From Actinomycetota bacterium (GTDB lineage: Bacteria > Actinomycetota > CADDZG01 > JAHWKV01), in contig DASTUJ010000062.1 of the NCBI GenBank assembly GCA_035759705.1, forward strand, positions 1 to 32,963: a stretch of 32,963 bases of DNA. The letters run 5' to 3'. This document shows positions 3,298-18,837 of this stretch, in pieces. How positions within the stretch are numbered: position 1 is the first letter of the stretch; each line of letters opens with the position of its first letter. The notes under the pieces were generated by a model, which ran no database searches, was not told where the DNA came from, and saw only the letters and a program-made list of their open reading frames with translations. Position numbers and translations under genes: made by a program.

Positions 3298-3380
3298 AAG
3301 TGGTGCGACGCGCCCTCAATAAACACTCGAAATCGTTGACTCTGCTCTCCGAAGTGGCGTAACGTGGCGCAAAGTGGTGG
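3298..3380 (+). promoter_or_regulatory. MraZ-box direct repeats and mraZ promoter
   Basis: Three tandem 10-base repeats occupy 3351-3380: GAAGTGGCGT, AACGTGGCGC and AAAGTGGTGG. A fourth AAGTGGTGCG lies upstream at 3298-3307. TTGACT at 3336-3341 can be a -35, with TAACGT at 3360-3365 as a poor -10 (18-base spacer) inside the repeats. MraZ proteins of other phyla bind direct repeats of a GTGG/TGGG-type core with a 10-base period ahead of their own gene, so this is a probable autoregulatory operator for the whole dcw operon. The leader to the mraZ start is about 95 bases. Confidence 0.8.
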
Positions 3381-3465: not shown

Positions 3466-3888
3466 ATGCTGCTCGGAGAGTTCGCCCACACGCTGGACGC
3501 CAAGGGGAGGGTTTTCCTTCCGGCGAAATGGCGGGAGGAGCTGGCGGGCGAGGTCGTGGTGACGGCGGGCCAGGAGCGCTGCTTGTTCGTGATGACCAAA
3601 CAGGCTTTCTCCCGCCGGGCAGAACAGCTCGAGGCACTCTCCTCGGACCAGAAGGCCAACCGGGACTACAAGAGGATGTTCTTCTCCTCCGCATCGGAGG
3701 AGTCGGTCGACAAGACCGGCCGTATGTCCATCCCAGCCGCGCTTCGGCGTTTCGCGGGGTTAGAGGGCAAGGAAGTGATGTTGATAGGCGTATCGGACCG
3801 CGCAGAGATCTGGGACAAGGCCTCGTGGACGAGTTACAGACAAAGCGTTGAGGGCAGTTACGCAGAGATAGCCGAGGAGCTCACCTGA
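3466..3888 (+). CDS. mraZ: Transcriptional regulator MraZ
   Basis: This 140-residue protein, of usual family length, has two SpoVT-AbrB-like DNA-binding halves. Each carries the signature: LDAKGRVFLPAKWRE at about 10-24 and VDKTGRMSIPAALRR at about 85-99. MraZ forms ring-shaped oligomers on the nucleoid and represses the dcw cluster that it opens. The ATG at 3466 is preceded by GGAG at 3455-3458. The direct repeats at 3298-3380 are the expected binding site. It is the first gene of a run of wall and division genes that continues with few gaps to ftsQ. Confidence 0.95.
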   Translation: MLLGEFAHTLDAKGRVFLPAKWREELAGEVVVTAGQERCLFVMTKQAFSRRAEQLEALSSDQKANRDYKRMFFSSASEESVDKTGRMSIPAALRRFAGLEGKEVMLIGVSDRAEIWDKASWTSYRQSVEGSYAEIAEELT

Positions 3889-3934
3889 TCTGCGCAAGCA
3901 GCAGGCCGGGTGCAACAGAGTGGAAGGAGCGGTA

Positions 3935-4063
3935 ATGGACGGAACATCAGGGGGGAGCCTTTTCAAGGAGGTTAGGGAGACCTTTCTGCTGCTGGGTATC
4001 TCGGCCAGTGTGCTGAGCGGCTACCTGGGCCTGGCCCTGGTTCTGTTCCGGGCCGCCGGATGA
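3935..4063 (+). CDS. 42-residue single-pass membrane protein between mraZ and rsmH
   Basis: This small gene encodes 42 residues, starting ATG at 3935 and ending TGA at 4061-4063. The Shine-Dalgarno site GGAAGGAG lies at 3922-3929 and is among the strongest in the window. The N-terminus is short and polar (MDGTSGGSLFKEVRET), followed by one hydrophobic helix at about residues 17-38 (FLLLGISASVLSGYLGLAL) and a one-Arg tail. Codon third positions are mostly G or C, as in the neighbouring genes. It sits 46 bases after mraZ and ends four bases before the rsmH start, so it should be co-transcribed and coupled to rsmH. I do not recognise a family. A division-linked micro-membrane protein is a reasonable guess, no more. 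Confidence 0.65.
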   Translation: MDGTSGGSLFKEVRETFLLLGISASVLSGYLGLALVLFRAAG

Positions 4064-4067
4064 ACAT

Positions 4068-5051
4068 TTGCCGGTAGAGGGACCTGCCGAGGAGAAGGGC
4101 GCCGGCTTTCGCCATGTGCCCGTGCTCTCCGGCCCGGCACTCGAGTGGCTCACGCCGGCACTGACGGGTGAGGGGCCGCTGGTCGACTGCACCCTGGGCG
4201 CCGGCGGGCACTCCGAGGCGTTCCTCAGGGCCCTTCCGGACTTGGTGGTCATCGGCATCGACCGCGACCGGGACGCGCTGGAGGCGGCACAACGCCGGCT
4301 GGAACCGTTCGGAAGCCGGATGCGGCTGGTGCAGACCAACTTTGCAGACATCGAGCAGGCAGCGAGAGGTGAGGGTTATGAGCAGGTGGGAGCGATTCTT
4401 TACGACCTTGGGGTTTCTTCTCCCCAGCTGGATCGCGCCGAGCGAGGTTTTGGCTTCCGGAGCGGCTTTCCTCTGGATATGCGCATGGACCAGGAGGCAG
4501 ACCTCAAGGCTCAGGACATCGTGAATAATTATTCAGAAGATCGTCTTGTCGACATCATCTTCCGGTACGGCGAGGAGAAGTTTGCCCGCCGCATCGCCCG
4601 CGCGATAGTGCTGCGCCGGGCCGTGAAACCGTTCGAGGAGGCGTCCGACCTGGCGGAAGTGGTTAAAACGGCCATACCGGCCGCGACCCGGCGGACCGGC
4701 CCGCACCCGGCCCGCCGAACCTTTCAGGCGCTTCGCATCGAGACGAACGCCGAGCTCGAGTCCCTCGAGCGTTCACTGACGACGGCGGTGGACCTGCTGC
4801 GCCCCGGGGGACGGGTGGCCGTCATCAGCTATCACTCGCTGGAGGACCGGATAGCCAAGCAGACGTTCCGGACCGCGGCCGAAGGCTGCACCTGTCCCAA
4901 GGACATGCCCATCTGCGTATGCGGTAAGTCGCCACGGGTGAAGGTTCTGACGAACCGGCCGGTGCGGCCGGACGAACAGGAGACCGCCCGCAACCCCAGG
5001 TCCGACAGCGCCCGCATGCGGGTGGCCGAGAAGGTGCGCGAGGCCGCCTGA
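4068..5051 (+). CDS. rsmH: 16S rRNA (cytosine-1402-N4)-methyltransferase RsmH (MraW)
   Basis: This 327-residue SAM-dependent enzyme methylates N4 of C1402 in 16S rRNA at the decoding centre. The SAM-binding motif TLGAGGHS lies at residues 42-49, followed by GIDRDRDAL, the YDLGVSSPQLD motif and the GFGFRSGFPLDMRMD segment typical of the family. The C-terminal part carries a Cys cluster (CTCPKDMPICVC) and the RNPRSDSARMR ending. The start is uncertain: TTG at 4068 has only GGA as a weak ribosome site, but translation can be coupled to the small gene ending at 4063. Its last base overlaps the ATG of the next gene. Confidence 0.95.
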   Translation: MPVEGPAEEKGAGFRHVPVLSGPALEWLTPALTGEGPLVDCTLGAGGHSEAFLRALPDLVVIGIDRDRDALEAAQRRLEPFGSRMRLVQTNFADIEQAARGEGYEQVGAILYDLGVSSPQLDRAERGFGFRSGFPLDMRMDQEADLKAQDIVNNYSEDRLVDIIFRYGEEKFARRIARAIVLRRAVKPFEEASDLAEVVKTAIPAATRRTGPHPARRTFQALRIETNAELESLERSLTTAVDLLRPGGRVAVISYHSLEDRIAKQTFRTAAEGCTCPKDMPICVCGKSPRVKVLTNRPVRPDEQETARNPRSDSARMRVAEKVREAA

Positions 5052-5650
5052 TGTCCGCCGTTCCTCAGAGGCCGGGCTCCAGCCCGGTGGTGCCGTCACA
5101 GCCCGCTCCGGCGGGTCTCACCGTGTTGCCCAGGGTGCGCAGAGGCCGGGTGGCCAAGGGGGCGCGGAGGCATTCGAAGCTCGGTGCGATGTTCCGGTCC
5201 AACCCGGTACGGGTTTCGATCGGGCTGCTGGTGGTCGCCGGGGTCGTCTTCGGCCTGGTCCTGCTGAACATCCACGTCGCCCAGACATCGTTCCACCTGT
5301 CCGACCTCCAGCGGCAGGCCGCCGAGCTGCAGACCGAGCAGCGCCGGCTGCGCTACGAGGTGGCGAAGGCGGAGTCGCCGGAGAAGATCGTCGAGATGGG
5401 GACAACCCTGGGCCTGGTTGCCCCGGCATCGCAGGAGTACATCGACGGACCTGTTTTAACGGCCGGCGGCCGCCCTTCCGAACCTGACATGGCGGCCCAA
5501 GCGGACAGCCACGCCGAACCTGACTCAAACGGCCGCCCTGACGCACAGCACACGGCGGTCCAAGCGGACGGCCGCGCCGAACCCGACGCTTCCCGCGCCG
5601 GGCGCGACCTCGCCTCGGACGCTGACCGCAAGGAGGAGCCCTCCCCCTAG
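5051..5650 (+). CDS. ftsL: FtsL-like septum protein with repeat-bearing C-terminal tail
   Basis: This 199-residue protein occupies the ftsL position between rsmH and ftsI. It has a basic cytoplasmic N-terminus (about 1-54), one transmembrane helix at about 55-75 (SIGLLVVAGVVFGLVLLN), and an FtsL/FtsB-type coiled coil at about 80-110 (DLQRQAAELQTEQRRLRYEV). The SPEKIVEMGTTLGLV segment then leads to the tail. Such proteins join the FtsQ-FtsB-FtsL complex that activates FtsW and FtsI. Unusually, residues 140-181 consist of two 21-residue copies (GRPSEPDMAAQADSHAEPDSN and a diverged copy) in a polar, disordered tail outside the membrane. Family assignment rests on topology and position because sequence conservation in FtsL is low. 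Confidence 0.8.
   Translation: MSAVPQRPGSSPVVPSQPAPAGLTVLPRVRRGRVAKGARRHSKLGAMFRSNPVRVSIGLLVVAGVVFGLVLLNIHVAQTSFHLSDLQRQAAELQTEQRRLRYEVAKAESPEKIVEMGTTLGLVAPASQEYIDGPVLTAGGRPSEPDMAAQADSHAEPDSNGRPDAQHTAVQADGRAEPDASRAGRDLASDADRKEEPSP
5491..5587 (+). repeat. Direct repeat inside the ftsL-like gene
   Basis: Two 34-base copies at 5491-5524 and 5554-5587 differ at four positions and are offset by 63 bases, so they keep the reading frame. Both encode the core AQAD/VQAD-x-x-AEPD. This is an in-frame duplication of a 21-residue unit in the protein tail. Confidence 0.8.
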
Positions 5651-18260: not shown

Positions 18261-18286
18261 CTATCTTCCTCCACGTACGAATGTGC

Positions 18287-18325
18287 GGTTACCAAGCCGG
18301 CCCCAAACGCCGGCGGGACGTAACC
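18287..18325 (+). other. Predicted leader hairpin upstream of the winged-helix gene
   Basis: GGTTAC (18287-18292) pairs with GTAACC (18320-18325), and GCCGG (18296-18300) pairs with CCGGC (18310-18314) inside it. This gives a two-tier hairpin that ends 32 bases before the chosen start at 18358. Its role is unknown. Confidence 0.4.
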
Positions 18326-18357
18326 ATTGGCGTCATTCAGGGGAACGGAATCGAAGT

Positions 18358-18837
18358 TTGGTAAACAAGCCGGAGGAGGGCCAGTATCAAATCTGCCTCA
18401 AGAGAGGGGATTCGGAGCTCCAGGTGAGCGCTCCCGACCAGGCGTGGGTCGAGGCCAAGGTCGAGGAGCTGATGAGATGGCTGCCGGCCTCCCCGCCTAC
18501 CCAAAACGTGGCTTCCGGAGCAGTGGCCGCGGCAGCCTCCGCCCCCGCCAAGGCACCCTCCCTCGCCGAGCACGTCCGGGCGGTGGGGCCCTCGGGCGGG
18601 CTGGAGCACGTGCTGGCAATCGGGTACTACCTGGAGCGGTACTCACGGCTCAACGGGGGCTTTCGCCGGCGGGACCTGGCCGAGGCTTTCAAAGCTGTTC
18701 GGTACCAGCACTCGAACCCCGGGGTCCCGATCGCAACCGCCAAGCGCCAGGGCCTGCTCATGGACGGCGAGGAGCACGAGAAGCTGCTGCTGACCGAGAC
18801 GGCCGAGCGCTGGGTGGAGGAGCGGCTCGGCGCATGA
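18358..18837 (+). CDS. Unrecognised winged-helix-like protein between ftsQ and ftsZ
   Basis: This 159-residue soluble protein has no family name I can give. The N-terminal 45 residues look like a small beta-alpha unit (QYQICLKRGDSELQV, then AWVEAKVEELMRWL). A flexible Ala/Pro linker spans about 46-75. The C-terminal half, HVLAIGYYLERYSRLNGGF-RRRDLAEAF, KRQGLLMDGEEHEKLLL and LTETAERWVEERL, follows the pattern of helix-turn-helix modules in which an YYLE helix is followed by a recognition region and a GLL wing. TTG at 18358 is chosen because MVNKPEEGQYQI begins the folded part, with GGAA at 18347-18350; an in-frame GTG at 18283 would place the leader hairpin in coding sequence. Position suggests a division-linked regulator. 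Confidence 0.65.
   Translation: MVNKPEEGQYQICLKRGDSELQVSAPDQAWVEAKVEELMRWLPASPPTQNVASGAVAAAASAPAKAPSLAEHVRAVGPSGGLEHVLAIGYYLERYSRLNGGFRRRDLAEAFKAVRYQHSNPGVPIATAKRQGLLMDGEEHEKLLLTETAERWVEERLGA

Follow-up and report, generated by a model that had tools for sequence, protein, structure and literature searches.

Membrane complexes can have small accessory subunits with a single transmembrane pass, such as KdpF, CydX and MgtS, and membrane insertion can be sensed by leader or arrest peptides of the MifM type. Closer to cell division, FtsL and DivIC are single-pass proteins with a periplasmic coiled coil, encoded in the dcw cluster, and CrgA (PF06781) is a small membrane protein of actinobacterial division, with about 90 residues in its profile. 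The protein described here, 42 residues long and encoded between mraZ and rsmH in the window (the whole stretch of 32,963 nucleotides that was analysed), has points in common with each of these.

Like FtsL and DivIC, it is a single-pass protein from the dcw cluster, but no extracytoplasmic coiled coil follows its helix, and a separate FtsL-like gene is found after rsmH (5051-5650). None of the 31 members scanned had a Pfam or NCBIfam FtsL/DivIC match, so that identity with these proteins was rejected. The FtsL-like candidate codes for 199 residues, sits at the place expected for FtsL and has a weak Pfam DivIC match (E 0.09). Identity with CrgA, or replacement of it, was discarded as well: CrgA is encoded elsewhere than the mraZ-rsmH gap, the ORF family has no PF06781 match, and CrgA is present alongside it, in the source genome itself at a separate locus (G000:C89:11463-11696). 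With the KdpF, CydX and MgtS type the small protein shares one conserved transmembrane helix, short tails and a position in an operon of larger genes, although no sequence relation was found and the window gene belongs to the dcw cluster. The likeness to the MifM type lies in a transmembrane-bearing small ORF placed just 5' of another gene and possibly coupled to it. However, the family is conserved at Glu12 and along a stripe of the helix (see below), instead of most strongly at the C-terminal end as in arrest peptides, and it has a paralogue away from rsmH.

No family of Pfam, NCBIfam, PHROGs or PDB matched above the curated cut-off. The best Pfam matches were weak ones to isolated members (BcsF, for instance, at E 0.002 in one of 31), and no paper dealing with a gene in the mraZ-rsmH gap turned up in the literature searches. 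Judged by these comparisons, the small gene would stand for a family of one-helix small membrane proteins that is new, seems undescribed and stands out by its genomic place.

The mraZ-rsmH gap of the window

The window carries an actinobacterial dcw cluster, in which mraZ, rsmH, ftsW, ftsQ, ftsZ, sepF and divIVA were confirmed by Pfam, while the FtsL-like, ftsI, mur, mraY and murG genes were identified from ORF translations only. Between ftsQ and ftsZ, an ORF of at most 184 residues (18283-18837) matched nothing in Pfam at E 0.001. The features at the head of the cluster are listed in Table 1.

Table 1. Coordinates of the small gene and of the features that surround it in the window.
Feature	Position	Strand	Evidence
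Likely operator of the operon, 5' of mraZ: three GTGG cores at 10-bp spacing that resemble a MraZ box, GTGGCGTAACGTGGCGCAAAGTGG	3354..3377	+	Repeat scan; congeners
mraZ, upstream neighbour	3466..3888	+	Pfam MraZ, E 2.1e-34
Shine-Dalgarno of the small gene: GGAAGGAG	3922..3929	+	Read from the sequence; 5 nt upstream of the ATG
Small gene, 42-residue single-pass membrane protein	3935..4063	+	pN/pS; same-gap homologues; profile searches; predicted helix 5-41
rsmH, downstream neighbour; TTG start, weak Shine-Dalgarno	4068..5051	+	Pfam MraW methylase, E 6e-115; start spacing and Shine-Dalgarno in relatives

The initial annotation had described a 42-codon ORF that lies in this gap, and the coordinates agree with it: the ORF begins 46 nt after the mraZ stop with an ATG at 3935, ends with a TGA (4061-4063) 4 nt before the TTG of rsmH at 4068, and translates as MDGTSGGSLFKEVRETFLLLGISASVLSGYLGLALVLFRAAG. 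The very strong Shine-Dalgarno site and the single transmembrane helix attributed to it were both recovered, the latter as a single helix at residues 5-41 in the AlphaFold model (mean pLDDT 90). So were the GC-rich third positions, since GC by codon position was 0.64/0.48/0.76, the same pattern as in the neighbouring mraZ (0.59/0.45/0.81) and rsmH (0.71/0.49/0.80). An in-frame GTG at 3920 is unsupported as an alternative start because relatives hold the 42-codon length, which was found exactly in six of the six members of the family-level group f1 (the window and five others).

Both of the sequence checks proposed with that annotation, a test of synonymous sites and a search for the gap ORF in related genomes, came out in favour of a gene. 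Within the genus (in which the close congener L002, "Actinomycetes bacterium OFTM18", is an unclassified MAG), pN/pS ranged from 0.24 to 0.39 in the frame of the small ORF, versus 0.99-4.4 in the other two frames. Random mutants with an equal number of changes had a median pN/pS near 0.9, and for each pair none of 500 was as low as the value observed. Frame and helix were conserved in the related genomes, and each of the other seven genomes in the order encodes a one-helix protein at the same position between mraZ and rsmH. With frame, start, length and amino acids conserved, the small ORF is confirmed as a real gene, beyond chance. A spurious ORF with no product, to which its shortness might point, is thus extremely improbable, being contradicted by the pN/pS values, the fixed length and the homology across families detected by a profile built from the class only (see below). 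What the comparisons show is a protein family that is conserved, selected at the amino-acid level and fixed in its operon place.

Distribution of the family

Within the class, 22 of the 23 genomes have a homologue in the gap. Outside the order, in the rest of the class (f3), the gap protein has the same layout in 14 of 15 genomes, typically R-E-L-x2-S-I-x-LLALTGSSVGGLLGMVAIATRALGR. The sole class genome without it is G011 (L096 / L233), in which rsmH comes almost directly after mraZ and the rest of the genome yielded no copy. This genome has lost the small gene, which is therefore not indispensable.

Beyond the class, three further family-level groups in the Actinomycetota also have gap homologues, at 18 of 18 loci examined (f12, 3/3; f9, 12/12 with readable gaps; f47, 3/3). 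When the class-only HMM was run against 97 outgroup loci (6085 reading frames), its 16 best matches were gap ORFs of f12, f47 and f9 (E 1e-10 to 0.2), and the first stray match appeared at E 0.29. A profile from a wider alignment, which already includes most of the sequences that it matched, gave 32 matches below E = 1e-5 in 247 whole Actinomycetota genomes, all of them in the gap bar one paralogue in G021; four genomes absent from that alignment (G158, G168, G187, and G079) scored 1e-11 to 1e-8, beside their own mraZ. These matches indicate that the family is not peculiar to the source genome and is spread across several Actinomycetota lineages. On an RsmH tree (a single gene with quick support only, and with the uncertain f44 and f57 scored as present), its presence requires at least seven changes.

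The initial claim that most genomes have nothing at this place agrees with the wider sample. No convincing homologue was found at about 70 further loci of Actinomycetota or at 77 of Firmicutes, which have rsmH directly after mraZ or a longer gap devoid of a transmembrane ORF; the median gap in the Firmicutes loci was 22 nt, and most of the other Actinomycetota families had no transmembrane ORF there. Similar one-helix gap ORFs occur in L131 (f57) and in L155 and L227 (one genus of f44), and may be strongly diverged homologues or have arisen independently. Being missed by the class-only HMM, they are omitted from the family counts, which also leave out a weak ORF in L186 (f28).

The second copy in G021, MSLTSASKQRGFAGELGKGVSLVAVSGALVGGVLGIAALGLRALGL, is located on the minus strand at about 1565-1705 of L235 (G021:C146). 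It has a strong Shine-Dalgarno and stands alone between two opposite-strand genes, outside the dcw cluster, which loosens the tie of the family to the dcw operon.

Helix anatomy and expression

The anatomy of the protein was examined in 25 aligned homologues, with no gap between Leu9 and the C-terminal tail. Ahead of the helix, Glu12 is the only invariant column (25 of 25 rows), and Leu19 is nearly invariant. Positions 24, 28, and 32 are all Gly, Ala or Ser in 23 of the 25 rows and form a stripe (A/G-x3-small-x3-G) along the helix; among the other i/i+4/i+8 triplets, 21/25/29 is small in 18 rows and the remainder in 0-4. Such a conserved stripe of small residues in a helix is a usual sign of tight helix packing. 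Position 39 is Arg or Lys in 21 of 25 rows (Arg39 in the window protein). Every member has one hydrophobic stretch followed by only 3-10 residues, the C terminus differs between groups, and the segment ahead of Leu9 is short and variable. Net charge over 36 members pointed to N-in for 26 and N-out for five, with five ties, the window protein being among the latter, with no charge bias. Overall, the likelier topology seems to be N-in, the C-terminal tail on the outside being very short.

The GTGG array upstream of mraZ is the only one of its kind in the window, with none expected in shuffles, and is identical in three congeners. Its repeats are similar to the published MraZ site, (AAAGTGKN3)3 (PMC5282649; see also PMC8475190), and suggest MraZ control of the operon that carries the small gene. 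The latter is probably co-expressed with mraZ and the other dcw genes, under regulation by MraZ. Shine-Dalgarno-like matches of 4-8 nt precede the homologues with a readable start. In the genus, the match is 5-7 nt for the small ORF versus 0-3 nt for rsmH, and the two genes are 4-22 nt apart. Both spacing and asymmetry are compatible with translational coupling, and the strong site of the small ORF against a weak or absent one ahead of rsmH suggests that rsmH is probably translated partly by coupling. No RNA element was found in the region, which gave no Rfam match and a fold no more stable than that of shuffles.

Possible roles of the small protein

The small protein had been proposed in the initial annotation as a division or MraZ accessory factor. 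The part of this proposal that stands, strongly supported by conservation, is that the first dcw gene has a real small membrane protein tied to it, one not recognised before. The accessory role is what we infer from position, likely co-regulation and helix anatomy, and place alone is no proof of a role in division. Our favoured reading, which we consider a good possibility although somewhat short of probable, is that the protein serves division or wall synthesis as an accessory subunit. The single-pass helix, probably N-in/C-out and made with mraZ and the dcw genes, would pack through its small-residue stripe against itself or against a helix of FtsW, FtsI, MraY, FtsL or FtsQ, and the protein would assist or regulate envelope synthesis or division as a small subunit. 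At the same time, the strongly initiated translation of its ORF would aid the ribosome start at rsmH a few nucleotides downstream. A membrane partner encoded by dcw is favoured because of the fixed operon place and the stripe; as no known family was matched, the partner is a guess. More tentatively, several Actinomycetota groups could encode, at the head of their dcw clusters, a lineage-wide subunit for division or wall synthesis, so far undescribed and missed owing to its length, with a glycine-zipper-like helix through which it forms oligomers or binds FtsW, FtsI or MraY.

The Shine-Dalgarno asymmetry and the short distance to rsmH would also suit a leader or coupling ORF, with the main role of bringing ribosomes to the weak start of rsmH or of sensing membrane insertion, and with a dispensable finished peptide. 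However, there is amino-acid selection along the whole helix, the most conserved residue is Glu12 and not the C terminus, the G021 paralogue lies away from rsmH, and the mRNA structure is not unusual; we regard a leader-only role as unlikely, and less likely than an accessory subunit. We are equally doubtful of a membrane protein whose only tie to dcw is the shared transcript, its function being unrelated. The lack of known relatives and the copy kept elsewhere in G021 would fit this, yet the gap position has been held over family-level divergence. Lastly, the peptide could tether or modulate MraZ (or RsmH) at the membrane, with feedback on dcw expression, in agreement with a family always found between mraZ and rsmH (the G021 copy excepted). 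The cytoplasmic segment available for this ahead of Leu9 is, however, only short and variable, and many lineages have mraZ and rsmH without the small gene, which makes such a factor rather improbable.

Returning to the accessory subunit that we favour, dcw is among the best studied bacterial gene clusters, and none of the family libraries searched contains the conserved family at its head. Studies of Actinomycetota may thus have overlooked a component of their division or envelope control.
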